Shown: one piece after another, positions 2,591 to 17,409 of the stretch
Position numbering within the stretch: position 1 is the stretch's first letter
Layout of the letters: each line of letters starts with the position of its first letter
Notes under the pieces: generated by a model
The model's input: only the letters and a program-made list of their open reading frames with translations
Databases searched by the model: none
What the model was told of the DNA's origin: nothing
Translations under genes and position numbers: made by a program
From: an uncultured Pirellula sp.
GTDB lineage: Bacteria; Planctomycetota; Planctomycetia; Pirellulales; Pirellulaceae
Length of the DNA: 64,000 bases
Reading direction: 5' to 3'
Assembly (NCBI GenBank): GCA_903892355.1
Contig: CAITIE010000108.1
Coordinates: 62,001-126,000 of the forward strand

Positions 2591-3046
2591 ATGTCTAAGG
2601 TCAATACGACAACTGCAAGCAATTTCTCAAACTCAACCAGCAAATCGTCTGCCGCGAATTCGCTTCAGGGTGGGGGATTGAATGATGTGGATGTGTCTCA
2701 ATTCTTGAACCTCATGATCACCGAATTGCAGAATCAGGATCCATTGAATCCGACGGATAATGCTGCCTTGATGGAGCAAGTCGGACAGTTGCGATCGATT
2801 TCGGCGAACGATACGTTGATCAAAACATTGACTAGCTTTTCCACGACCCAGGAACTGACAACGGCGAGTGGACTTATCGGGAAGAAGGTCAAGGGATTGG
2901 ATAGCGATGCGAAAGAGGTAAATGGGGCAGTCTCGAGTGTCTCGGTAAAGATTGACGAAAAAGATCGCAACAAGCGTCAGGTACAAGTGCATGTTGGTGC
3001 CCAGATTGTCGATATGAACAATATTCGCGAGATCGTGGAAGAATAA
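2591..3046 (+). CDS. flgD: Flagellar hook assembly scaffold FlgD, short form
   Basis: FlgD is the hook-capping scaffold needed for FlgE polymerisation. Residues 30-80 hold the conserved N-terminal block: DVSQFLNLMITELQNQDPLN followed by PTDNAALMEQVGQL. A Ser/Asn-rich lead precedes it, as usual for a substrate of flagellar type III export. At 151 residues it is shorter than the 200-plus of typical FlgD: the C-terminal part is small (about residues 100-151, LIGKKVKGLDSDAKEVNG onward), and a full FlgD tudor/FnIII cap is not evident. The gene flgE follows on the same strand 178 bp downstream, which supports the call. Confidence 0.87.
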   Translation: MSKVNTTTASNFSNSTSKSSAANSLQGGGLNDVDVSQFLNLMITELQNQDPLNPTDNAALMEQVGQLRSISANDTLIKTLTSFSTTQELTTASGLIGKKVKGLDSDAKEVNGAVSSVSVKIDEKDRNKRQVQVHVGAQIVDMNNIREIVEE

Positions 3047-3224
3047 TTGCACTTGGAATGTGAGTTCGCTAGCAAGAGATGAATCGAGCTAGCAAAGATC
3101 GCGTCGGGTAATTGTCCCCGATCGAGCGGATCCTGGTTCAGCTGCCTCATGGATAGTGTTGCTTGGGCAGTTGTGACGATCGTGGATTCACCCGGTTATC
3201 ATTGACGCGTGGAGTAACGAACTC

Positions 3225-5675
3225 ATGGGTTTGGCATCAGCGCTTAGTACTGCCCTAACGGGCATGAATGCAGCGGAAACACAGATCGACGTTCTAGGTA
3301 ATAACCTTGCGAACTCGCAAACGGTTGGGTTCAAGGCGTCGGACGTTGTGTTCGCGTCCCAGTTCCTTCAAACGCTATCTTTAGGTGCGGCGCCGAACGC
3401 GGACAGCGGTGGTGCAAACCCCAGGCAAACGGGTCTCGGTGTTCAAGTTGCCGCGATCAATCCGAACTTCAAGCAGGGGACGATTGAGATCAGTTCTGCT
3501 TCGTCCGACTTGGCGATCCAAGGTGACGGTTTCTTTCAGGTTGCGGGAGCATCTGGTGAGAAACTCTACACACGCAATGGTGTGTTCCGGCTTAACAGTA
3601 CCAATGAGTTGGTGACATCGACCGGGAACCGGTTGCTCGGTTACGGGATCGATGATCAATTCAATATTCAGACCACAGCTTTGGTCCCGTTATCAATTCC
3701 GGTTGGTACCGAGTCTGTGGCCAAGCAAACCACAACCGTGACGTTGGAAGGTACGTTGACTTCGTTAGGAGATGTTGCGAATCAATCGCAGATCGTCCAA
3801 AGCGCGGTCCTTGGTAATGGTCTGATACCGCGACCTGTATCGTCAGGCATGTCAGCAACAGGTTCCAACGGACCACAGTTGACCGGTGTGAACTTTACGA
3901 CCGTCGAAGGCGGGGGTGGTAACATCGCGGAAAGTTCGACGTTCGGATACAAGTTCACGTTCGTCGACAGCCAAGGCAAAGAGACAATGCCTACCAGTGA
4001 GTCTACGTACACGGTTCCTGTCGGTAATGGGAATGCGGACAACACTGTTCGTATCACGTTGCCCGCGGCCAACTCGCAGTACAATCAAGTTCGAGTGTAT
4101 CGCACGGCACCTGGAGGGTCGGATTACTTCTTGGTGGGTTCTGGTGCCGCGGGAAGTACTTTCAATGACACAACGGCGGCCTCGTCGTCTACGGCGCTCA
4201 ATAGCGCGGGTTTGACGGGGAATTATTCCTACATGATCACCTACTACAAAGCAGGTGAACCGGAATCGAGACCGTCACCGCTGGTCGGTCCTGTCAACGT
4301 GATCAACGGTAGACCAGTTTTGTCAGGCTTTCCAACGCCGCCGGTACCTCCTCCTGAGGGCGGTTTTCCTGCGTACGATCAGATTCGACTGTATCGAAAC
4401 ATGGCGAACGACCCCACATCTTTCTACCTGGTGGATACCGTCGCACCTACGGGATCGTATACCGATTCCAAGACGGATGCGGATATCAGCAATCTCGCCT
4501 TGCCAGGCCGCAAAGCCGTGAACCTTGACGGTCCAACGGTGGACGGCACGACCAAACTCATCAACGTCACCACGCGCGATGGTCTTGACTACTTACAGCC
4601 TTTTAAGGCTGGAGAGTTGTCGTTCAAAGGAAAAAAGGGGGGGCGTACGTTGGATGAGAAGACCTTCGAAATCACCAACAACACCACCGTCCAAGAGTTA
4701 ATGACCTTCATGAAGGACTCACTGGGTATCGTGAGTGATTCCGGGGATGCATCTAACCCGATTGCGGGATCGGTGAATAAGATCCTAGGTGAGTCGGGAA
4801 CGATTCAGCCCAACGTGTACATCAATAACGGCGCGATTCGGTTCGTTGGCAACACAGGGGCCGACAATGCAGTTGCGATCGATTTGACTGGGTTTCGCTT
4901 GACCGAATCGAATGGCAACGTGAGTAATCCAGCGTTGAATTTCACGGTTCAACAAGAAGCGGAGGGCACGAGTGCGGTGACGGACTTCATTTCGTACGAC
5001 TCGCTGGGCTTCCCTGTCCGGGTACGCTTGACGGCGGTCCTTGAAAGCCGGACCGACCAGAACACGACCTATCGTTGGTATGCAGACAGTCCAGAAAACG
5101 TAAGTCGAACGGGCAGCCCGATCGATGTGGGGACGGGGTTGATTCGATTTGACGGGAATGGAAACTTTGTTTCAGCGACGAACTCCACAGTAGCCATCAA
5201 CCGCGTTGGGTTTCCGAGCGAAAAGCCGATGCAGTTCGATTTCAATTTTGGTGCTCTTTCGGGTTTGGCCGCGGCTAAGGCGACGGTTGCTGCTTCGCGT
5301 CAGGACGGTTCACCTCCAGGGGTTTTGACCAGTTACGTCATCGGTGAAGACGGCACGATCCGAGGGGTGTTCAGCAACGGTATCTCCCGAGACTTGGGAC
5401 GATTGCGATTGGCGCGTTTCTCCAACCCAGGTGGTTTGGAACAACGTGGTCAGAACTTGTATGCCCAAGGGATCAACACCGGGTTGCCTATCGAAGGTAG
5501 TCCCTCGGAAAACGGGATCGGTACGGTTACCGCAGGTGCTCTCGAGTTGTCCAATACCGACGTCGGTGGTGACTTGGTGACGCTGGTGCTCGCAAGTACT
5601 CAGTACCGAAGTAATGCTCGGGTTATCACGGCTACCCAGCAGCTGTTTGACGAGTTGCTCAATCTGCGTCGGTAG
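3225..5675 (+). CDS. flgE: Flagellar hook protein FlgE with large inserted domains
   Basis: FlgE forms the universal-joint hook of the flagellum. The N-terminus (ALSTALTGMNAAETQIDVLG, then NNLANSQTVGFKAS) is the rod/hook-family heptad helix and signature. SSASSDLAIQGDGFFQV near residue 95 is the second FlgE/F/G motif. The C-terminus (GALELSNTDVGGDLVTLVLA, then STQYRSNARVITATQQL) is the pairing coiled coil. At 816 residues it is about twice the enterobacterial length; the extra mass around residues 220-430 looks like two FnIII-like beta domains (QVRVYRTAPGG and QIRLYRNMANDP are matching strands). The start ATG has GGAG about 10 bp upstream. Confidence 0.93.
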   Translation: MGLASALSTALTGMNAAETQIDVLGNNLANSQTVGFKASDVVFASQFLQTLSLGAAPNADSGGANPRQTGLGVQVAAINPNFKQGTIEISSASSDLAIQGDGFFQVAGASGEKLYTRNGVFRLNSTNELVTSTGNRLLGYGIDDQFNIQTTALVPLSIPVGTESVAKQTTTVTLEGTLTSLGDVANQSQIVQSAVLGNGLIPRPVSSGMSATGSNGPQLTGVNFTTVEGGGGNIAESSTFGYKFTFVDSQGKETMPTSESTYTVPVGNGNADNTVRITLPAANSQYNQVRVYRTAPGGSDYFLVGSGAAGSTFNDTTAASSSTALNSAGLTGNYSYMITYYKAGEPESRPSPLVGPVNVINGRPVLSGFPTPPVPPPEGGFPAYDQIRLYRNMANDPTSFYLVDTVAPTGSYTDSKTDADISNLALPGRKAVNLDGPTVDGTTKLINVTTRDGLDYLQPFKAGELSFKGKKGGRTLDEKTFEITNNTTVQELMTFMKDSLGIVSDSGDASNPIAGSVNKILGESGTIQPNVYINNGAIRFVGNTGADNAVAIDLTGFRLTESNGNVSNPALNFTVQQEAEGTSAVTDFISYDSLGFPVRVRLTAVLESRTDQNTTYRWYADSPENVSRTGSPIDVGTGLIRFDGNGNFVSATNSTVAINRVGFPSEKPMQFDFNFGALSGLAAAKATVAASRQDGSPPGVLTSYVIGEDGTIRGVFSNGISRDLGRLRLARFSNPGGLEQRGQNLYAQGINTGLPIEGSPSENGIGTVTAGALELSNTDVGGDLVTLVLASTQYRSNARVITATQQLFDELLNLRR

Positions 5676-5795
5676 CGTTAACTCGTCCATAGTTCTGCAA
5701 GCGATTGGGCTGAAGCATACCTCGCGCCGGTTTGAGGCGTTTGAGGGCCAATCTAATTCTTGTTCATTGGTACTGTTGGAGGTATCCTTGGTCGG

Positions 5796-6782
5796 ATGCA
5801 AAACCATCCTACACCTAGCAGTCTTTCAGCCGCACCGTTGGAGAATCTTCGGCTTCGAGCGGATCTCGCCCGACGATTGCGGGCTTTCTTCGATTCCAGG
5901 GGCTTCACGGAAGTCCATACACCGATTCTTTCAACACGGTCGATTATCGATCGGCACCTCGATCCTATCCGCGTGCCGGGGAACCATGTTGGATTTCCTG
6001 GAGTGGATGGAGATTGGTATTTGCAGACATCGCCAGAACAATCGATGAAACGATTGCTCGCGTCTGGGATCGGTAGCATCTACCAGTTAGGTCCGGTTTT
6101 CCGAGCGGGTGAATTGGGGCAATTCCACAATCCCGAGTTCACGATGGCGGAGTGGTACGATCTCGACGCTGGGTTCGAACAAGGCTTGTCGCTCCTCGAT
6201 CAACTCTGCGGATGTTTGCTCGAAACTCCTACCGCTCATCGCCAACGTTTTCCGGATGCATTTCGGGACACCACGGGCTTGGAGTTATTCGAGACCGATG
6301 CGAGCCAACTGGGCGTCTGGTGCTTGGAAAATGCTTTGGTCGATTCTGCGGATTGGACGAGTGACTGGGACGATTGGGTCAATCTGATTTTCTCGATGCG
6401 GGTCCAGCCGAGATTGGGCCTGGATCGCCCAGTGCTCATCACGCATTTCCCCGCGTCCCAAGCGGCCTTGGCAAAACTGGATCGGGAAGATCCTCGCACT
6501 GCGGAGCGGTATGAACTGTTTTTCCGCGGTGTTGAGTTGGCCAATGGCTACCATGAGTTGCTCGATGGCGACATCCTCCGACAGCGAGCCGAGATAGCAG
6601 CCCAGCAGCGATCGCTCGATGGCAAATTTGCAATCCCGGTCGACAACCCGTTGCTGGACGCAATGGCGGTTGGCATACCGGCATCGTGCGGCTGTGCCTT
6701 GGGATTCGACCGGGTGGTTATGTTGGCGTGTGGCGCGGAACGACTTGATCAAGTAGTAGCTTTTACGGCCGACCGAGCGTAA
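5796..6782 (+). CDS. epmA: EF-P lysine ligase EpmA (GenX/PoxA family)
   Basis: EpmA is a class II lysyl-tRNA-synthetase paralogue without an anticodon-binding domain that attaches beta-lysine or lysine to translation factor EF-P. Visible are motif 1 (FFDSRGFTEVHTPILS, about residues 27-42), motif 2 (VFRAGELGQFHNPEFTMAEW, about 101-120) and motif 3 (GCALGFDRVVML near 302). At 328 residues it matches E. coli EpmA. I chose ATG 5796, with GGAGG at 5778-5782, over an upstream TTG at 5760. It follows flgE on the same strand but has no functional link to flagella other than, perhaps, translation of proline-rich proteins. Confidence 0.9.
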   Translation: MQNHPTPSSLSAAPLENLRLRADLARRLRAFFDSRGFTEVHTPILSTRSIIDRHLDPIRVPGNHVGFPGVDGDWYLQTSPEQSMKRLLASGIGSIYQLGPVFRAGELGQFHNPEFTMAEWYDLDAGFEQGLSLLDQLCGCLLETPTAHRQRFPDAFRDTTGLELFETDASQLGVWCLENALVDSADWTSDWDDWVNLIFSMRVQPRLGLDRPVLITHFPASQAALAKLDREDPRTAERYELFFRGVELANGYHELLDGDILRQRAEIAAQQRSLDGKFAIPVDNPLLDAMAVGIPASCGCALGFDRVVMLACGAERLDQVVAFTADRA

Positions 6783-6902: not shown

Positions 6903-7544
6903 TCAACCCTCGAGCAACTCCGGGAAATTCTCTTGGAGCGCGTGGCGCGCGATCAAATTGCGGGTGCGAGTCACGAAGTCGGATTTGTAGTTTGCGACTT
7001 GCTGCTCGCTCAAATTCAACGCATTCGAGACATCCTTGTTGCTTGCACCAGCGACGAAGAGCAACTCGATGCACTGAAGTTTTTGATAATCGGATTTCGA
7101 TTTCCACTTGGATATCTGATCTGCGATGGCAACCGCGAGGGCTTCTTCTTCGAGATCTCTCCGTTCCACCGATCGGGCGAGACTGCTTGCCGCTCGGCCT
7201 TTCGAGGGGACATTTTGGGCAGCATCGCTCGATCCTTCCCGAGCTACCCATTGGGTGGTATGTCGGCGTCCCTCGCGTCTCAAGTGGTCGGTTAATTTGT
7301 AGGCAGCGATCGAGAACAAGTAGCTTTCCAGAGGTCGCGATGCGTCGTAATTGGGGATGCTGTTGAGAAACCCAATAAAGGTCTCTTGGACGATATCTTC
7401 CGCATGCGATCGATCGACCAATCGTGTTCCGACATAAGCCAACAGTCGGCCTTCGAAGCGCTCGATGAACTGCTGCCATGCGTGAGCGTCACCGGTACGA
7501 ATACCTTCGATGAGCAGAGTATCTAAGTTCGTTTCGTTCATCAT
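6903..7544 (-). CDS. ECF-type sigma-70 family RNA polymerase sigma factor
   Basis: This 213-residue protein carries region 2 at about residues 28-88: RLVDRSHAEDIVQETFIGFL and ESYLFSIAAYKLTDHLRRE match the -10-recognising core. Region 4 at about 158-200 (LQCIELLFVAGASNKDVSNA, then LNLSEQQVANYKSDF) is the -35 helix-turn-helix. A spacer of about 50 residues rich in Ser/Arg separates them. It is the last gene of a minus-strand run behind a membrane Ser/Thr kinase and FHA-like protein, so phosphorylation or a membrane anti-sigma may control it. No gene shaped like a zinc anti-sigma factor is adjacent. Confidence 0.88.
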   Translation of the reverse strand: MMNETNLDTLLIEGIRTGDAHAWQQFIERFEGRLLAYVGTRLVDRSHAEDIVQETFIGFLNSIPNYDASRPLESYLFSIAAYKLTDHLRREGRRHTTQWVAREGSSDAAQNVPSKGRAASSLARSVERRDLEEEALAVAIADQISKWKSKSDYQKLQCIELLFVAGASNKDVSNALNLSEQQVANYKSDFVTRTRNLIARHALQENFPELLEG

Positions 7545-7613
7545 TGATTACAGCGATGATTGTTTAAGCGAGAGTTTTTTTGATTCTTAAACCCAGTATT
7601 AAGCGTAGTTAAT

Positions 7614-8717
7614 TCACGCTCGACGGTTCTCGCGTTCAGCGAAAAAGCCCACAATAAGAGAAAATGCTGCGATGAATGGAACGATAGAAATCGTGGTGAA
7701 AACAACCATTACGGCTCGCTCTTCACCTACAAATTGGCGTTCCCAATGCTTGAGGAACGACAACTGCTGTTGGTCGATATCCAGTAAAACCCATAGCTGG
7801 TGGTAAGTTCCACTCGGCCGTTCCTGGACGTTGTCGAATTCGGATCTCGCCAAAAAATGTTCGCGGATGTAATCTTCGGTGAGGGCACCTTCGGGCCACG
7901 TTGTGCTCATTTCGCCGAACCCGTTTTGAACGAGAATGGTTCGAACTTCTTCTAGCAATCGTTGGTCGATATCCTTCCGGCATTCTTCGAGAGACTCAAA
8001 GAGCGAGCTAGCGATCGGAACTCTCAATCGGTCTTTTGAGACCACCCGTTCTCGAACCCAGGACGGAGCATTTTCCCCAACAAGTGGCTTATTGAACGCA
8101 TAGTCATCGGTTTGGCTACCCTCGGATGTATCACCGGACCTTGGTGCGCCGCTAGCGCTGTTGAGGATTTGGAATGCGCCGCTGTTGGGTTCCGAGACTT
8201 CGGCTTGCTTGCGTCCAAAACCGCCAATTTTCCCGGTAGGAGCTCTCGGGATGCTGGGAATGTTTTTCTTTTCAGACGTGTTGTCCGAATTGCTGGGATC
8301 GAGTGCTGGACTTAATTCCGAGAAGGCTTCTCGCACTGCTTGTTTAAGTTCTCGTTCGATTTCCTCTTGGGATGCGGACGGATCCATCTTTTTCGACATC
8401 GAATCCAATTTGTCGGTGACTCGTTGCATCGATTTTGAGAGCCAGTCGAGGGAACGTTGAGCCGACTCGTAAGCGTTCCCCTCCGACTCCCGTTCTGATG
8501 GAGCGTCCTCTAATTGGGAGGCTGACTTAGGTGATTCGTTTGAACCCGCATCCGTGGTTGTCGGTGGGTCTTGACGGAATCCAAGAGACTGTCCTGCCAA
8601 TACGCTGCAGATCGCGATCCCACAAAGTACAGCGTGGGGCGAAAGCCATTCCATCGCTATGGCTCGAAGGATGGAATAGCCTGAGTTCGAATCATCGTTG
8701 CGAAGCGGTGTATGCAT
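7614..8717 (-). CDS. Hypothetical membrane protein, coiled-coil/Pro-Ser rich, in the kinase-sigma operon
   Basis: This 367-residue protein has a hydrophobic segment at about residues 28-46 (AVLCGIAICSVLAGQSLG), likely a signal peptide or anchor. A charged, helix-prone stretch follows at about 68-135. A Pro/Ser/Gly-rich linker leads to a folded region at about 215-330. A C-terminal membrane helix ends the protein (TTISIVPFIAAFSLIVGFF, about 340-358). No known family is recognised. It starts 38 bp after the kinase stop and ends 69 bp before the sigma-factor start, so it is a natural candidate for a membrane partner of either. MEWLS at residue 22 is an alternative start. Confidence 0.68.
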   Translation of the reverse strand: MHTPLRNDDSNSGYSILRAIAMEWLSPHAVLCGIAICSVLAGQSLGFRQDPPTTTDAGSNESPKSASQLEDAPSERESEGNAYESAQRSLDWLSKSMQRVTDKLDSMSKKMDPSASQEEIERELKQAVREAFSELSPALDPSNSDNTSEKKNIPSIPRAPTGKIGGFGRKQAEVSEPNSGAFQILNSASGAPRSGDTSEGSQTDDYAFNKPLVGENAPSWVRERVVSKDRLRVPIASSLFESLEECRKDIDQRLLEEVRTILVQNGFGEMSTTWPEGALTEDYIREHFLARSEFDNVQERPSGTYHQLWVLLDIDQQQLSFLKHWERQFVGEERAVMVVFTTISIVPFIAAFSLIVGFFAERENRRA

Positions 8718-8755
8718 AGCGCTATTGAGGGCTCTTGGTTTGATGATTGAATGGA

Positions 8756-11326
8756 TTAAGAGAGATTTGTTTCAGGGATGCGGGTTGAATCAATCCACGG
8801 AGAAGCGAGTTGAACGACGAAGGATGTCGTTCCTGCCAGGATGAAACACCAGGGGGTTGGGAAGTAGAAAATGCCTTGGATCAATGCAGCGACCAGAACG
8901 CTCCAAAGGATGGTCAAGATCGAGAATCGCTTTCGCCTCAGGATATCCGATTGACGCCACCATCGAACCGCCCAGAACAAAGTTGCAAAGTAGGCCATGT
9001 GCCCTGCCAGCAGCGGGGATCCAGCCTCATCATAGAATCCTCTCCATTGCTGACTGAGCTGCTTGTCGTCAAGCGAAACATGGATGGGGGAACTGCTCAA
9101 AATATCCGCCCAAGGAACCAGGAGGTACTCGCTCAATTGGTAACTCAGGGTCCCCAGAATCAAGCCGGCCACCATAAGTACAAATCGGAAAGCGATCGAA
9201 TCCTCATCGCGTATTTCCCAGCGTCGGCTGAGCGTGAGGATGGCCCAGCTGCTGGCGGTGGTCATGATCGCGAGCCAAGCAACGGCTCCGACGTTGATGT
9301 TCTCTTTGAGTGCAGGATGGGAGTACGCCAGTACACCAGCTACGATCGCGAGAGTGGATGCAATGAACCCTGAAAACGTGATCGATCTGGTGGTCGCGTG
9401 CAGGGATGTCCAGAAGCCCCTTGTTCGAAGATTCGCGCGCTGGGTATCCTGCCACCGCCGCCAAGCTTCCTTGCTCGAGGATGGTTTAACATAGGCGACA
9501 GTTTGGCTTGGTTTTGCCCCAACGCCTGGCGATGGGGTCCGAGAATCCGTTTCTTTGGTTTCGTAGTGGACCGTTTCTTGGAGTCCCACTGCCGGTCTTA
9601 ATTTGGGGACAGCTCTCGCGGGTTTCTGGCCATTTCGCGGGGTGGGGGAAATCGAGGCTGGGATCGGTTCATTTCCGAAAACGAACCAAGTTACGTACCA
9701 GCCCAAATAGACAGCCAGCATTGGCAATGCGAGCGGTACCAGCCAGGATGCGTTGATCACAGCCACAATGATGATGCAAACGTAAGCGATATCCCGACTG
9801 GATTTCGGGAGGGCTTGCAAGCGATCCAGGAGATCTTTTTTAGCGTAAATGACCGTTTTGCCGATGGGCTCCTTAGCCAACAAGGCCTGATGTTGTTCCC
9901 AGCTGAGCAACAGGAGCTTTTCGAAGCGGTACCAATATCCTGTTTTTAGGGGGGCGCTGATGTCTTCCCTGCGTTCGACACTGGCATGCTTTGGATTGGC
10001 GTCGGCGACCTCGCCGGACGCATTCACATAGACTGGTCGAGGTGTTGCGGCATGCGTCGATGAACTCGCGCGTTCGACGGACGCGTTGTCTTGCCCGAAC
10101 GATCGTTTCGAGGCCAGGCCGGTAACATCGAGGTCATAACCGAGTGCGCTCAGCAGTTCGCGAGCATCGCGAAAACGCAAGGTAGGGTTTTTGGCAAGTG
10201 CTCTCTGGATGACGTTCGCAAAGGGCTCAGGAACATCTCGAAGATCGGGATCTGCGGTAAGGTGTTTCAGGATGATCTCTTGGGTGCTCTCACCGTCGAA
10301 CGGAACGTTTCCCGTGAGCATTTCAAAGAGGATGATCCCTAAGGAGTAAACGTCGATTTCCTTTCCGTATTCACCTTTGCCGATCTCAGGTGCCATGTAG
10401 TGGAAGGTGCCGACACTTTCCGTTTGACCACCTCGCCTTGATGCACTGATGTATTTGGAAAGTCCGTAGTCCCCGATTTTGGCAAAGCTGCTATCGATGA
10501 AAATATTGGCAGGTTTAAGGTCTCGATGCACGATGCCTTGATCGTGCAAATAAGTAACCCCTGCGCAGATTTGAGCGAAAAGCGGAAGAGCTCGATCGGA
10601 AGACATCCCGTTTGGGAAGCCATCGAGTGTTTCTCGCAAGGACTCCCCTTCGATGAACTCCATCACGATCCAGCCTTGCTGGTCTTTATCAAACCGGATG
10701 TCGTAGATCGCGACCAGATTGGGGTGACGCAAATTCAAACAGTGCCGGACGCCGCGCATTTCGACGTCCATATTCTTTTGAATCCGCTTCAAAGCGACTT
10801 CTTTTCCAGAATCGCTTTCCGCGAAGTACACCTCACCGAACCCGCCGATTCCGATCCCGCGCATGATGGTGTAGCCGTCCAACGGGCTATCGCCGCTTGC
10901 GTATTGAAATTTCATTGGGGCACCGGAAGCATCGGTCGGTTTGGGACGCGTTGAAAAGGACTTGTCATCGAATAAGTTTTGATGCGTTTTTTTGAATTGG
11001 TTTAGCGATTCACCGGAAGCATCGGTGTTGAATTGGCCGGTCTCGTTCCGAATCCCTTTTGAAGGAGGTGGACGCTTGAGGATATTGAACATGTCTCGCA
11101 GGTCGCTCCGTAGTAAGTTTATTGTGGCTGATATCGAGGGAGTGTCGAGTTGTCCCGTGTTAATTTGCTTGCGCTTATCTCCGTGCCCAAGCGTCTTCAT
11201 GAGCGTTTTCGTGAGCTTTTTCTTGGGGGGATGGGGCGTCCCCGGTGGCGATTTGACCTCAGGTTCATCAAGCTCTTCGTTGTGGGCTGGGAAAGCTTGG
11301 GAAAAAATGACCTTGGATCCTCCCAC
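8756..11326 (-). CDS. Membrane-bound Hanks-type serine/threonine protein kinase
   Basis: The kinase domain spans about residues 150-410. The Gly loop is GIGIGGFGEV (157-166), the ATP lysine K180 (VALKRI), the catalytic loop HRDLKPANI (267-275), and the Mg loop DYG (286-288) where DFG is usual. GTFHYMAPE (306-314) is the P+1/APE segment. The first 140 residues are polar and disordered. The C-terminal half has membrane helices at about 510-550 and 640-856, perhaps eight in all. The start is GTG with GGAGG-like pairing just downstream of the FHA-like gene stop, 8 bp away, which implies translational coupling. The substrate is unknown; the operon points to the FHA-like protein or the sigma factor. 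Confidence 0.92.
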   Translation of the reverse strand: MGGSKVIFSQAFPAHNEELDEPEVKSPPGTPHPPKKKLTKTLMKTLGHGDKRKQINTGQLDTPSISATINLLRSDLRDMFNILKRPPPSKGIRNETGQFNTDASGESLNQFKKTHQNLFDDKSFSTRPKPTDASGAPMKFQYASGDSPLDGYTIMRGIGIGGFGEVYFAESDSGKEVALKRIQKNMDVEMRGVRHCLNLRHPNLVAIYDIRFDKDQQGWIVMEFIEGESLRETLDGFPNGMSSDRALPLFAQICAGVTYLHDQGIVHRDLKPANIFIDSSFAKIGDYGLSKYISASRRGGQTESVGTFHYMAPEIGKGEYGKEIDVYSLGIILFEMLTGNVPFDGESTQEIILKHLTADPDLRDVPEPFANVIQRALAKNPTLRFRDARELLSALGYDLDVTGLASKRSFGQDNASVERASSSTHAATPRPVYVNASGEVADANPKHASVERREDISAPLKTGYWYRFEKLLLLSWEQHQALLAKEPIGKTVIYAKKDLLDRLQALPKSSRDIAYVCIIIVAVINASWLVPLALPMLAVYLGWYVTWFVFGNEPIPASISPTPRNGQKPARAVPKLRPAVGLQETVHYETKETDSRTPSPGVGAKPSQTVAYVKPSSSKEAWRRWQDTQRANLRTRGFWTSLHATTRSITFSGFIASTLAIVAGVLAYSHPALKENINVGAVAWLAIMTTASSWAILTLSRRWEIRDEDSIAFRFVLMVAGLILGTLSYQLSEYLLVPWADILSSSPIHVSLDDKQLSQQWRGFYDEAGSPLLAGHMAYFATLFWAVRWWRQSDILRRKRFSILTILWSVLVAALIQGIFYFPTPWCFILAGTTSFVVQLASPWIDSTRIPETNLS

Positions 11327-11334
11327 CGCGCTTG

Positions 11335-11982
11335 TTAACGGGTGGCGAGAGTCATCGAAAAGTCATCCCCGTGGACCCTTTGGCCTAAGGGGATGGGGAA
11401 CGGGGCGCTAATCGGCTCTGGATTGTTCCCGACAAATACTGGCGAGCTGCTCAAGACACGGACCATCCAGTCGTCTTGGTGCCTGAAAAGGACGATTTTG
11501 GCCCCCCAGTTCGGGCAGTGAATATGCGATGATGGATCCGCCCCTAAAATGCATGATTCGCCGAGAAGCAACGCGCCGGACAAACTTGGTTGCCAGCGGT
11601 GCTGACTGGCGATTTCAAGCCTACCTGTGCCGCTGAGCTTGGTCGGGCGTTTGTAGCGGAGAAGAAGACGGTTCCCAAAATCTAAAAGATCACCGTCGGC
11701 AAGTAGCGTGGCCCGTTCGATTTGGGCCCCGCGGATAGAAACGGCTTGGAAGGGCTGGATCCAATGACCATCGCCGGAGCGCCGAAAGATAGCGGCGCGC
11801 CGGCTTAGATCACTTCGTATGGCTAAATCAATCTCGTTGCTTGGAAACGACTGTCCCAAAGAGATTTCGCTCGCATCGCACATAGCAAAGCCCCCCACGC
11901 CGTCGATCCATAGGATTTTGGGTCTTTGCATCATGCGGTCTGGCTTGGAAGGTACGATCCTACGACTGAAAGAACTCATCAT
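11335..11982 (-). CDS. Tandem degenerate FHA-like domain protein
   Basis: FHA domains bind phosphothreonine. Two FHA-like repeats are visible. The first, about residues 20-105, has the pattern ISLGQ...SNEIDLAI...DLSRRAAIFRR...HWIQP...TLLADGDLLDFGN. The second, about 120-215, begins LLLGESCILGADPSSHI. The canonical GR and SxxH residues read GQ and SRRAA in the first repeat, so binding may be altered or lost. I start at the ATG at 11982 (AAAGGA 8 bp upstream), giving 215 residues, rather than an upstream GTG at 12021. The kinase gene follows 8 bp later, so the pair is almost certainly co-translated. Confidence 0.68.
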   Translation of the reverse strand: MMSSFSRRIVPSKPDRMMQRPKILWIDGVGGFAMCDASEISLGQSFPSNEIDLAIRSDLSRRAAIFRRSGDGHWIQPFQAVSIRGAQIERATLLADGDLLDFGNRLLLRYKRPTKLSGTGRLEIASQHRWQPSLSGALLLGESCILGADPSSHIHCPNWGAKIVLFRHQDDWMVRVLSSSPVFVGNNPEPISAPFPIPLGQRVHGDDFSMTLATR

Positions 11983-12087
11983 AATGTAAATCCTTTCCGA
12001 CGATTTCGCATCTCCATGCACTGTTAGGCAACGAATATGAGCATTTGTGATCGGCCGAACCGATTGCCTGGAGCTGGAACTCGCTCT

Positions 12088-12930
12088 TTAAGGTTGCGTT
12101 GCCAGCGAGCCCATATCGTCGATTTCAGCCAATCGATTCAAATCTCTGACTGAACCACCTTGGGCCGGTGCTGCGAAGTACTCGGAGATTTGATCGACGA
12201 TACTTTCCGATTCCAAATCGTCACCGACCGGAACTGAGCCTACTTCGTCGAAGCACTGCACCAATTTTTCTGCAACATCGATGCGAGTTGAGATCTCATC
12301 GAGGACTTGGCGAACACCGGACAGGGCGCTGTCATTGACGGCAAACTGACTGCCGGTTTGTGCGACTTCGACCATGGTCAACCGAGCTTGCAAGTTCTCG
12401 ACTTGGACCTCGAGTTCGCGTTTCGCGGAAAGCATTTCATCGAGTTTGCGACGCGCGGCAACCAAATTCCTCTCGCGTGCCTCGAGGATCTTTTCCAGTT
12501 TGCTGGAGGTAGCCTCCAACGCCTGATGATGTTTGAACCTGTCCGACAAATCCTTGCGGACGTGCTCGATATCGTATTTCTTACCTTTGTACGTAACGAA
12601 CTTGGCTCCGCTCTGGACGTCGTCTTTCAGCTTCAGGATGCTGTCCTTCGACTTGTTGAGGGACGATTGCTTCCCGGAGACCTCACGCTGCAGCTTGGCC
12701 ACTTCGACCTCCTCACGGGCGATCAATTTCAGGTTATCGGCGATCTCTGGTTTGAGGTCTGCGATCATGTCGCGAGCCCGCTTGATCTCGACTTCGATCG
12801 GAATTTGCTCCTTGATCGAGTCGCGTACGCTGTGATAGCCGGTCTTGACGTAACTGTAAGCGGAGGTACCCGCGAGCAATGCTCCGCCTCCCACTAACAG
12901 CGTTGAACCTAACAAAAATTTCTTGAGCAT
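12088..12930 (-). CDS. Membrane-anchored coiled-coil protein, first gene of the kinase operon
   Basis: This 280-residue protein has an N-terminal hydrophobic segment (FLLGSTLLVGGGALLAGTSA, residues 5-24). A long predicted coiled coil covers about 45-200, with dense E, K, L and R heptads such as EVEVAKLQREVSGK and ERNLVAARRKLDEML. The C-terminus is short and acidic. The shape resembles PspA/IM30-like or membrane-tethered spacer proteins, but I see no sequence motif that proves this. An AGGGG precedes the ATG by 9 bp. It heads the minus-strand run to the FHA-like, kinase and sigma genes, so the operon promoter should lie in the 12931-13463 gap. Confidence 0.72.
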   Translation of the reverse strand: MLKKFLLGSTLLVGGGALLAGTSAYSYVKTGYHSVRDSIKEQIPIEVEIKRARDMIADLKPEIADNLKLIAREEVEVAKLQREVSGKQSSLNKSKDSILKLKDDVQSGAKFVTYKGKKYDIEHVRKDLSDRFKHHQALEATSSKLEKILEARERNLVAARRKLDEMLSAKRELEVQVENLQARLTMVEVAQTGSQFAVNDSALSGVRQVLDEISTRIDVAEKLVQCFDEVGSVPVGDDLESESIVDQISEYFAAPAQGGSVRDLNRLAEIDDMGSLATQP

Positions 12931-13463
12931 GGCATGAACCCCTAAACAATGTTTTCCGAAGCGGTGAACCGTGAACGATGAACGGAGGTCGAGGGGCCGC
13001 TACTGGCCGCCGACATAAGGTGATTCGACCCACCCCGACGAATCTTGACCTTTATGGAAAAAAGCAGCCGAGGAATTTTTGAATGAGGTTTTTTGAGCGG
13101 GCTCGATTTTTCCGGAGCCAAAACCTTGAAAATAGCGGGGTGGCTGGCTGGTTCGTGGGTGGAGGACCCGTTTACCACTTGCGAGGCGGGAATAATTCGG
13201 GATGATCCCATTTTCCTCGGGGATACAGGACCGTATTCTTGAAGTCCTCACGGCCCTCCTTTTGGGAATTGTTTGGCCAGAGAAAGGGACGTCAGCGAAA
13301 GATTACCCAGCCCACGGCATCGAAGTGCATCAAATGTGGAACTTCGGCCCGTCGCTGCGACATCGCTGGTTTTTGAGGATGGTTCATTCGAAGGTTGGTT
13401 CTAGGTTCGCTGGTTCGAGGTTCGCTGATTCGAAAACGTAGGAATGGAAGGTCGGAAACCAAA
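12931..13463. other. Intergenic region between divergent signalling operon and acidic-protein/ileS genes
   Basis: This 533-bp gap should hold promoters for both directions. I found no convincing -35/-10 pair. It does contain a near-perfect direct repeat of aggttcgctggttcg (13403-13417) and aggttcgctgattcg (13418-13432) shortly before the acidic-protein gene, and A/T-rich patches at 13051-13110. Confidence 0.4.
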
Positions 13464-13838
13464 ATGACGCAACTCATTGCAACGGATCCAAAAAGCCCAG
13501 AAACGGAAGACTGGTTCGAAGCAGCCCTCATGACTGCGTCTGCGATGCCTCGTACCGTCCGGAACTCGTGGGGCGACGACGAAGACGCCGAAGACGAAGT
13601 TCCCGAGGAAGATGATGAGTCGGAAGAGGACGAAGATCCCGATCCGTTCGAGGATTTCGACGAAGATGATTTCGATGACGACTTCGATGACGACTTTGAG
13701 GAAGAGCTCGAGGACGAGTATGAAATCGAACCAGCGGACGATGGCATGCTCGAAGGTCACCCCGATGCCGAAGACATCGATGCTGAGGAAATCGACGAAG
13801 ATGCGGATCCACCTGCCGATTTCACCGAAGAGGAATAG
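13464..13838 (+). CDS. Extremely acidic hypothetical protein upstream of ileS
   Basis: This 124-residue protein has a normal first 35 residues (MTQLIATDPKSPETEDWFEA onward), then a run of about 85 residues dominated by D and E, such as FDEDDFDDDFDDDFEEELED. Such tails are intrinsically disordered and may bind basic proteins or metals. I start at ATG 13464; the reading frame continues upstream without a better site. It is followed 79 bp later by ileS on the same strand. The opposite strand is also open because the repeated D/E codons give an open antisense frame, but codon use favours this strand. No function is assigned. Confidence 0.68.
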   Translation: MTQLIATDPKSPETEDWFEAALMTASAMPRTVRNSWGDDEDAEDEVPEEDDESEEDEDPDPFEDFDEDDFDDDFDDDFEEELEDEYEIEPADDGMLEGHPDAEDIDAEEIDEDADPPADFTEEE

Positions 13839-13917
13839 TCGTCGCTGAGGAGTGATCGCAGACGAGGGATTCATACCAAAGAGGAATAACGCTGGCGAAT
13901 AGGCTGTCGATTGAATT

Positions 13918-16900
13918 ATGTTTCGAGCCGTGAAAACCGATGTCAAATTCCCAAAGCAGGAAGAAGCGATTCTCGATTTCTGGAAATCGAACCGCATCTA
14001 CGAGAAATCTCTAGAGCAACGCGAAGGGGGTAAGCCGTTCGTCTTCTTCGAAGGCCCCCCTACAGCCAACGGGCTCCCCCACCCAGGCCACTGCTTAACC
14101 CGCGCGATCAAAGACCTTTTCCCGCGTTACCGCACGATGCGAGGATATTGGTGCAACCGCAAAGCTGGCTGGGACACGCATGGCCTACCCGTCGAGGTGG
14201 AGGTTTGCAAGGAACTGGGGATCCATAGCAAAGAGGAAATCGAGCAGTACGGCGTTGAAAAGTTTATCGCTAAATGCCAGCAGAGCGTTTGGCGCTACAT
14301 GCAGGAATGGGAACGTGTCACCGAACGTTTGGGGTTTTGGATTGATCTGTCCCAGGCATACGTCACCTACCACCAAAGCTACATTGAAAGCGTTTGGTGG
14401 TCGCTTAAGAATCTGTTCGACAGAGGCCTTCTCTACCGCGGTCACAAAATTGTTTGGTGGTGGGCACAAGGGGGTACGGCACTTAGCAGCGGAGAAGTTG
14501 GCCAAGGCTACCGCGAAGTTGCAGACCCGAGCGTCTATGTCCGATTCCCAATATTGGGTTCGGCAAATCCATCCTTGACCAACGCATCGTTGATCGTATG
14601 GACAACCACACCTTGGACATTGCCGTCGAACCAGTTTGCAGCGGTGCACCAAGACATTGAGTATGCGATTTGCCAAGAGGAAAACGCTGAAGGTGCAGTC
14701 TCTGGTGAACGGTTCGTGGTTGCCGTTTCCTTGGTCGAGATGCTCGCCGAGAAAATCAGACGAAAACTGAGCGTCGTGTCGACCGTTAAGGGTGACGCAT
14801 TGGTCGGGTTGCGATACCAGCCTCCGTTCGACTACTACCACCAAGCGCGAGGCAGCCAATTAGGGCGTCTCAAAACCGGAGGAGAATCCGTCCGGGAGTG
14901 GCGTGTTGTGCATGCCGATTTCGTGACGATCGATTCGGGTACGGGAATCGTCCATTTGGCTCCCGCCTTCGGAGAGGTCGATTACGACGTTTTGGTTGCG
15001 GAACGAGAACGTTTTGTCGACGGGAGTGGCCCAGCCCTGATATGCGCAGTCGGTCCCGATGGAAAGTTCACCGAGGAAGCTCCCGACTACCAAGGGGTTT
15101 GGGTGAAGGATGCAGACAAGCCTATCACGCGTGCCTTGCGGGAGCGTGGCACGTTATGGCATCAAGAGCAGTATGTGCACGATTATCCATTCTGCTGGCG
15201 GGCCAGCGAAGATCCATTGATCCAATATCCCCGAGAGAGTTGGTTTATCCGGACCACTGCGTTTAGGGATGCGATGCTTGAAAACAATCGTCAAATCGGC
15301 TGGTTGCCCGAGCATATCGGGGCCGGGCGATTCGGTAACTTCTTGGAGTCCAACGTCGACTGGGCTTTGTCCCGAGAACGCTATTGGGGAACACCGCTAC
15401 CGGTATGGGTCTGTGAATCGACCGGCGAGAAAGACGCGATCGCGAGCTACGACGAACTGTGTAGCAAACCGGGTGTTCAAGGGTTGGATGTTTGGCTGGA
15501 TGCCAAAGCCAAAAACCCGGAGCTCGCAGAAGATCTCAAGGTGCACAAGCCTTACATCGACTCGGTTACCTATGACTCTCCCTTTGCCAAAGGTGCACGT
15601 ATGCACCGGGTGCCTGAGGTTATCGATTGCTGGTACGACAGCGGTGCGATGCCCTTCGCTCAGTGGGGCTACCCGCATTCTGGAAAAGAGCTTTTCGCCG
15701 CGCAGTTTCCCGCGGACTTCATCAGTGAAGCCATCGATCAGACGCGCGGATGGTTCTATAGTCAGCTGGCCATCAGCACCATGCTGTTCGGCGACAAGCC
15801 GGGACAAACCTCCGTTTCTTCGCAGGGCAATGGCTATCCGCATCCGTTCAAGAATTGCATCGTGCTCGGATTGATGCTGGCCGAATGGTATGAAAGCAAA
15901 GATGGCAAGCAGCGATTCCTGACCGAGGAAGACGCGAGGGCAGCGCTGGGTGGCGATTTTGTCCAGAAGACGGGCAAGATGAGCAAGCAGCTCCGAAACT
16001 ATCGAAGCCCGCAGGAGATCTTCGATCGTTACGGGGCCGATGCCCTGCGATGGTATTTGTTCGCCAATCAAGCCCCATGGAACTCGATCCTTTATTCCGA
16101 ACGAGCGATTCGTGATAGTATTCCCGAGTTCATCTTGCGGCTATGGAACGTGTTCAGTTTCTTCACGATCTATGCGGAGATCGACGGTTTTGTCGGGCCT
16201 GCGGATATTTCCGGTCCGCTCGACCAACTCGGATCGGACGAGCTGAGCCGTTCCAAGACGTATCGACCTGTAGCACAACGAAGCGAGTTGGATCGCTGGA
16301 TCATGAGCGAATTGGCGGCGACCTGTCGCGACGTGGTCGATCGGATGGATCGTTACGACAGCTATGGGGCTTGCCAATCCCTACATGGGTTGGTGGATGC
16401 ACTCAGCAATTGGTACGTGCGACGAAGTCGATCTCGCTATTGGGCTTCCGATAAGACATCGCAAGACAAGATCGACGCGTATTGGACCCTGTACGAATCG
16501 TTGGTGGTCATCACCAAACTAATCGCGCCCTTCACGCCGTTTTTGGCCGAGACCCTCTGGCGGAACTTGACCGGTTCCCTGGTTGGAGTTCGTGAAAGTG
16601 TCCACCTGTGCGATTTCCCTACAGGCGATTTTGCTCCAACAGATGCAACCCTCAACGCTCGGATGGCGTTGCTCCGCGAAATTGCATCGTTGGGAAGGTC
16701 CGCTCGGATGGAATCGAAGCTCAAGGTTCGGCAACCTCTCGGACGGGTCGAAGTTACCTTGGCCAATGACACCCATGCCGCATGGCTTACCGAGCACGAT
16801 GACATCGTGCGAGAGGAGTTGAACGTCAAAGAAATCCATTACACGAGCGGCGCGAGTCCGTTTGTGTCCTACTCCGTACAGCCCAACTTTCGCCGGCTGG

Positions 16901-17409
16901 GACCGCGCGTGGGGGCCCTGCTTCCAAAACTGAAGCAATCGCTGGGGGCCCTTTCCGGTTCGCAGTTGATGGAGGAAATGACCCGCAACGGGAAGATTTT
17001 GATTTCGATCGATGGCAAAGAAATCGAACTCGATGGAGAGGACATTCAAGTCCGATTGTCGGCCAAAGATGGGTGGGCCGCAGCCCAAGGCAGTTCCTGC
17101 GTGGTCGCTCTCAACACCGAGCTAACTCCCTCGTTGATCCGTGAGGGGATCGTGAAGGATGCGATCCGGTTGGTCCAAGATCTGCGCAAACGCCGTCAAT
17201 GCAATTTTACGGATCGCATTGTGCTAACTGTTTTCTCTGAGAGCCAGCAGATCCTCGATGCCTTGCAAGAGCATCGCGATTTTCTTGCCTCGGAAACGCT
17301 TGCGAGCTCGCTCCAATTGCAACTTGGAAGCGGTGATGCGGCTTGTGAACCAGTCGAATTGGCGGACGAAAAAGTGGCAATCGATTTGAAGATTGTTCCC
17401 GAGGCCTAA
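13918..17409 (+). CDS. ileS: Isoleucine-tRNA ligase
   Basis: The enzyme charges tRNA-Ile with isoleucine and edits valine. It is 1163 residues, the length of the eukaryote-like type 2 form (bacterial type 1 is about 930). The HIGH motif is HPGH at residues 55-58 (ANGLPHPGH). The KMSKS motif is KMSKQ at 687-691 ([15 protein letters not shown]), as in type 2 enzymes, which usually read KMSK followed by R/Q and L-x-NY. The CP1 editing domain has [11 protein letters not shown] at about 227-237. The C-terminal tRNA-binding domain has [18 protein letters not shown] near the end. Type 2 enzymes are often mupirocin-tolerant. Confidence 0.97.

Follow-up and report, generated by a model that had tools for sequence, protein, structure and literature searches.

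The window examined here is a stretch of 64,000 nucleotides from an uncultured Pirellula sp. of the Pirellulaceae (contig CAITIE010000108.1, positions 62,001 to 126,000 of the forward strand). At positions 6903-12930 it carries five genes that are co-oriented on the minus strand and transcribed in the order CC, FHA, KIN, MEM and SIG. They encode a coiled-coil membrane protein, a tandem FHA-like protein, a membrane Ser/Thr kinase, a further membrane protein and an extracytoplasmic function (ECF) sigma factor. The set is preceded by a conserved, bipartite motif upstream of CC, which is new relative to an earlier, sequence-only reading of this DNA that had proposed a complete route from a membrane sensor to gene expression. 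The features are as follows.

13023-13048, minus strand: putative ECF-type promoter of the operon, with a -35-like element TCAAGAT (13048-13042) and a -10-like element GTCGAAT (13029-13023)
12088-12930, minus strand: CC, coiled-coil membrane protein of 280 residues, first gene of the operon
11335-11982, minus strand: FHA, tandem FHA-like protein of about 215 residues, with a possible GTG extension to 12021
8756-11092, minus strand: KIN, membrane Ser/Thr kinase, probably of 778 residues, in an open reading frame (ORF) that reaches to GTG 11326
7614-8717, minus strand: MEM, bitopic membrane protein of 367 residues
6903-7544, minus strand: SIG, ECF sigma factor of 213 residues

The five minus-strand genes described earlier are present as ORFs (12088-12930, 11335-11982, 8756-11326, 7614-8717 and 6903-7544), and the gaps of 105, 38 and 69 bp hold. 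All five ORFs are coding, as in each of them the third codon position accounts for most differences from the related locus L002, which is 75-95% identical. When compared with L001 and L002, the initial ~78 codons of the kinase ORF show neither a coding signature nor a third-position bias, and they contain indels in both relatives whose lengths are not divisible by three. The sole usable kinase start in L001 is the ATG equivalent to window position 11092. KIN therefore probably starts at ATG 11092, so that the gap between FHA and KIN becomes 242 bp and the proposed 8-bp coupling of the two genes, which depends on an unlikely kinase start codon, is left unsupported. The over-extended part of the kinase ORF (11093-11326, ~78 codons from the GTG) is probably non-coding, and its DNA is partly conserved just before ATG 11092.

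KIN and SIG are identified by domain matches, as had been proposed. KIN is a Ser/Thr kinase (Pkinase, 1.9e-51, in Pfam/NCBIfam) in which the Hanks-type residues (Gly loop, catalytic Lys, HRD and activation loop/APE) are kept in 75-76 of 76 homologues, with DYG replacing DFG. Its kinase domain is N-terminal and cytoplasmic and is followed by several transmembrane helices (judged by hydropathy), and the protein is without a sensor domain recognisable in its sequence. Assignment to the PASTA/Stk1 (PknB) kinases was rejected: NF033483 covers the kinase half only (200 of 450 bits), and Pfam yields no PASTA domain. SIG is an ECF (group 4 sigma-70) factor, with sigma regions 2 and 4 only, that matches Sigma70_r2 (1.4e-14, residues 27-94), TIGR02937 (1.5e-18, residues 21-186) and PF07638 (1e-7). 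The last two DAED positions of its region 2.2 are occupied by Glu (48/49) and Asp (49/49), and the linker between regions 2 and 4 carries a near-invariant R-x-x-S-S-x-x-R-S-x-E, whose serines are S120, S121 and S125. Of 149 Pirellulaceae genomes, 146 contain a strong homologue of SIG (E below 1e-60), apparently as a single copy. The absence of a zinc-type anti-sigma factor from the operon is confirmed in Pfam/NCBIfam, and no protein of the operon matches any anti-sigma family in Pfam, in NCBIfam or with the MEM alignment.

Taken singly, the sequences of CC, FHA and MEM match no curated family in Pfam or NCBIfam. The tandem FHA-like identity of the second protein is nevertheless borne out by its AlphaFold model, an all-beta tandem (pLDDT 88.8) whose leading Foldseek matches in the PDB are all FHA domains, with probabilities of 0.99-1.00 and including the tandem domain of EssC. 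The VIA comparison with FHA domains gave Z up to 7.1 (root-mean-square deviation 2.1, 88 residues aligned), and PF00498 is matched by 16 of 29 members of the family. Of the residues by which an FHA domain would bind phosphothreonine (the GR Arg, the SxxH motif and the Asn for phosphothreonine), the GR Arg is mostly replaced: among 74 homologues its position holds Gln in 54, Gly in 16 and Arg in only 2. His stands at the SRxH position in 27 homologues, and the protein of the window has Gln at the GR position and Ala at this one. Canonical reading of phosphothreonine by FHA is unlikely because the GR Arg is replaced in most homologues, and the claim that FHA reads the mark of the kinase, which also has to accommodate whole lineages without an FHA gene, has become doubtful. 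In one subclade (L027-L031, L039-L041, L049, L054, L071, L072, L076 and L078-L080) the FHA protein is longer (~460-520 residues) and has an N-terminal helical, TPR-like extension, for which TPR matches are weak only.

CC consists of an N-terminal membrane anchor followed by a long coiled coil, and is single copy in the window's own genome. It was rejected as a PspA/IM30 (ESCRT-III-like) protein (hhalign probability 0.5%; the family lists of 22 CC members do not include PF04012). A genome from the same order has, ~42 kb from SIG, an additional and weaker CC paralogue (G167:C1:1788954-1789706). MEM has transmembrane helices at both ends (residues 24-42 and 333-362, from hydropathy) and, according to alignments, a conserved extracytoplasmic alpha/beta domain with a PxWV motif at approximately residues 219-314. 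AlphaFold confidence for MEM is 73.5 overall and exceeds 85 across most of this domain. No PDB match to the model was found at E<=0.001 (best E 0.13), but the model is partly of low confidence, so that a new fold is not proven. MEM was also rejected as a known anti-sigma factor, since it has no anti-sigma match in Pfam/NCBIfam, and a 25-member alignment is likewise without a Pfam match.

The adjacency of the five genes in related genomes, on which the sequence-only reading was to stand or fall, is conserved across the phylum. A kinase scan of GTDB species genomes gave 80 loci, of which the named ones are planctomycete; CC is present in 69, FHA in 74 and SIG, downstream, in 49, many of the loci that lack a gene being truncated at contig ends. 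The order CC-FHA-KIN is kept in nearly all uncut Pirellulaceae loci, usually with one membrane-protein ORF between KIN and SIG. Among 294 sampled genomes of Planctomycetota, 56 have a CC homologue and 40 have SIG and CC together, 31 of these with the two genes no more than 12 kb apart; the same proximity holds in 28 of the 36 genomes with both genes that lie outside Pirellulaceae. Full five-gene clusters occur at L083 and L087, in a Planctomycetaceae-like family of the same class, and at L090, from a more distant group, and in further groups the same families are rearranged as KIN-SIG-CC. The five-gene set thus looks like a core stress-signalling circuit of much of Planctomycetota.

Upstream of CC, the dyad AAGA-N15-CGAA was found de novo in 22 of 42 diverse loci, against a maximum of 4-5 in shuffled sequence. 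The corresponding bipartite position weight matrix, CCAA(G/T)A(T/A)-N12-GGCGAAT, has its matches ~80-190 bp before CC; in 65 of the 67 training loci they exceed the 99th percentile for shuffled sequence, and in 63 the spacing between blocks is 12. When SIG-linked and SIG-less clades were cross-validated, 30/40 and 18/20 loci scored above the control. Among 20 loci outside the training set, mostly from the other family of the class, the motif is present in 16, again with a spacing of 12, and the dyad emerges de novo in 12 (4 in shuffles). The copy in the window (13023-13048) lies 93 bp before the start of CC, has 12 bp between the blocks and was also recovered in a genome-wide scan. Around the operon, consensus matches to a housekeeping promoter or a terminator were no more numerous than in shuffled sequence. 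A regulatory link between motif and operon is the simplest account, because the motif still precedes CC in clades in which SIG is encoded elsewhere. We infer that the motif is a promoter read by SIG itself. In genus g3, the motif occurs a second time within the operon, ahead of MEM-SIG (L131 in G391; G405:C1:6029351-6029375).

Other candidate targets were sampled by sequence patterns. Counts of the strict motif exceed a reversed-pattern control, and many matches lie inside coding sequence. In two congeneric genomes the motif precedes the orthologous genes for a 184-aa helical protein and a Band-7/SPFH protein, and further matches lie before a gene for a bPH_4-domain membrane protein and before MEM within the operon. 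Across the family, it is above control before 8/21 orthologues of the 184-aa protein, 4/19 of the Band-7/SPFH protein and 5/30 of a protein of the Colicin-V/CvpA family, the genus of the window being represented among these five; this last protein also has the motif upstream in the genome of the window itself. Genomes of f3, the other family of the class, have about one strict-pattern site each, which in G181 is exactly that of the operon. A large regulon was rejected on these grounds, namely the many intragenic matches and the near restriction to the operon in f3. The regulon seems to be small and lineage-variable, with autoregulation as its constant part. One f3 genome (L264) has the motif 103 bp before a secA-like gene, and in three Pirellulaceae loci (L108, L118 and L119) the unlinked SIG lies near such a gene, the secA assignments being made by eye.

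With moderate confidence, the operon can be regarded as a kinase-gated, autoregulated envelope-stress ECF module that forms a core circuit of Planctomycetia. CC and MEM, as membrane proteins with extracytoplasmic parts, would set the activity of KIN together with the FHA-fold scaffold. KIN would then release or activate SIG, either directly or through FHA, CC or MEM as partners. SIG would transcribe its own operon from the CCAA(G/T)A-N15-CGAA promoter, resulting in positive autoregulation, and would also transcribe a few lineage-variable genes, mostly for membrane or secreted proteins. The signal would presumably be envelope stress. The link from KIN to SIG is one that we infer, and it gains indirect support from the retention of an ECF-type motif before the kinase operon where SIG is encoded elsewhere. 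A more specific form of this model, in which KIN, CC and MEM assemble on an FHA fold that has lost the usual phosphothreonine binding and KIN gates SIG by phosphorylating the linker R-x-x-S-S-x-x-R-S, is tentative and, as it stands, rather unlikely.

Several observations weigh against a kinase-gated, autoregulated module. SIG lies outside the operon in several clades, including loci of Rhodopirellula, Rubripirellula, Stieleria and Roseimaritima, and the unlinked SIG usually has no motif upstream of itself. The motif before CC was not found in two more distant genomes, and in f3 it is nearly absent outside the operon, so that the regulon may hardly extend beyond the operon itself. No FHA gene was found at L067 and L070, between CC and KIN, which are both kept, nor in genome G392. 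Finally, the acidic region 2.2 kept in SIG would make phosphorylation needless for core binding in the manner of EcfP. The unlinked SIG stands in varied contexts, and no conserved new neighbour was found for it across clades; in the eight genomes of this kind that were checked, CC and FHA are still adjacent.

The alternative that survives best is that MEM or CC is an unrecognised anti-sigma factor holding SIG, and that the kinase acts on CC, FHA and MEM or on envelope targets rather than on SIG. In most loci the gene for MEM, a membrane protein, directly precedes SIG, the extracytoplasmic domain of MEM could act as a sensor, and SIG, with the acidic residues of region 2.2 intact, should bind RNA polymerase. 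However, the MEM of the window offers only a short cytoplasmic N-terminus and a C-terminal tail and matches no anti-sigma family, and CC, FHA, KIN and MEM stay together where SIG leaves, which indicates that MEM tracks the kinase more than SIG. This explanation is an unlikely one. More improbable still is a different sigma factor, or a transcription factor, as the reader of the motif upstream of CC, with SIG controlling other genes and owing its place in the operon only to co-expression. Such a reader would explain why the region upstream of an unlinked SIG is usually without the motif, but the motif is ECF-like in its two-part form, keeps a fixed spacing and accompanies the operon across the class, in which SIG is the near-universal, apparently single-copy ECF encoded with the operon.

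A switch of the EcfP/ECF43 type, in which the kinase phosphorylates a Thr in region 2.2 and thereby restores negative charge, is very improbable. The arrangement of a Ser/Thr protein kinase (STPK) beside an ECF, with no anti-sigma factor, is that of ECF43 (PMC8999054, PMC8103513), but EcfP has STTA where SIG keeps the acidic DAED residues, which contradict such a switch. The earlier suggestion of control by phosphorylation therefore fits poorly in the phosphoswitch form. That the genes are neighbours by chance or mere inheritance is scarcely plausible. Bacterial neighbours can persist by descent, and SIG is unlinked in several clades, but the linkage recurs across distant groups, in two gene orders and with a common upstream element. 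Overall, the gene identities and order of the sequence-only reading stand, the 8-bp coupling and the reading of phosphothreonine by FHA do not, and its kinase-to-sigma link keeps the conditional form given above.

On the far side of SIG, plus-strand genes at 2591-6782 include flgD- and flgE-like genes and a gene for an EpmA-like lysyl-tRNA-synthetase paralogue (all by eye), the last of which converges on SIG. Divergently upstream of the operon, an ORF for a very acidic protein and an IleRS-like gene (by eye) occupy 13395-17409, and the IleRS-like gene remains linked to CC in the close relatives L003, L014, L016, L017, L033, L073 and L074.

Planctomycetota are rich in kinases and ECF sigma factors. 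The module is core and apparently single-copy, has few parts and a defined candidate promoter, and is present in complete genomes of cultured species, so that kinase-to-sigma signalling in the phylum is directly testable. Transposon tools exist for one tractable planctomycete, Planctopirus limnophila (PMC10632474). If it occurs, phosphorylation of the SIG linker would be a sigma-phosphorylation mechanism distinct from that of EcfP, in a circuit as old as the phylum. In a study of Rhodopirellula baltica, ECF sigma factors and kinases are reported among the stress-induced genes (PMC2754498), to which no gene of the operon could be matched. No description of the five-gene operon was found in the literature searched, which mostly excluded subscription papers.

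Like the envelope-stress ECFs of the SigW/RpoE type, the module has a putative autoregulated ECF-type promoter and mainly membrane or secreted candidate targets, and the Band-7/SPFH protein among them parallels SigW. The SigW/RpoE-type factors, however, have anti-sigma factors like RseA/RsiW, whereas none was found here and a kinase module takes that place. The FHA fold is shared with mycobacterial EmbR/GarA and with the N-terminal tandem of EssC (5fwh), where two FHA-like modules likewise follow one another, but canonical FHA domains use the GR Arg for phosphothreonine and the family in the operon is mostly without it. With EcfP-PknT (Vibrio, ECF43) and EcfK-PknS (Xanthomonas) the operon shares the possibility that a kinase activates an ECF; EcfP has lost the DAED that SIG keeps, and partners such as FHA, CC or MEM are not described for these two pairs in the sections available. 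According to the reviews PMC8103513 and PMC8999054, six ECF groups are associated with STPKs (ECF43, ECF59, ECF61, ECF62, ECF217 and ECF283), of which ECF59, ECF61, ECF62 and ECF217 have planctomycete exemplars (PMC8999054). The two reviews present the planctomycete groups as predictions from gene neighbourhood, none being listed with an experimental study, and describe the mechanism as worked out for ECF43 only, groups with an intact DAED-like motif being expected to differ (PMC8103513, PMC8999054). SIG falls outside ECF43, in which DAED is replaced by uncharged or Thr residues, and within the loose definition of an STPK-associated ECF, with KIN in the operon across the phylum and no anti-sigma match. 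What it shares with these groups is an ECF beside a Ser/Thr kinase and no anti-sigma factor, and it differs from them in the presence of CC, a tandem FHA fold and a bitopic MEM in a fixed order, in the conserved putative promoter of the operon and in the retention of an acidic region 2.2.

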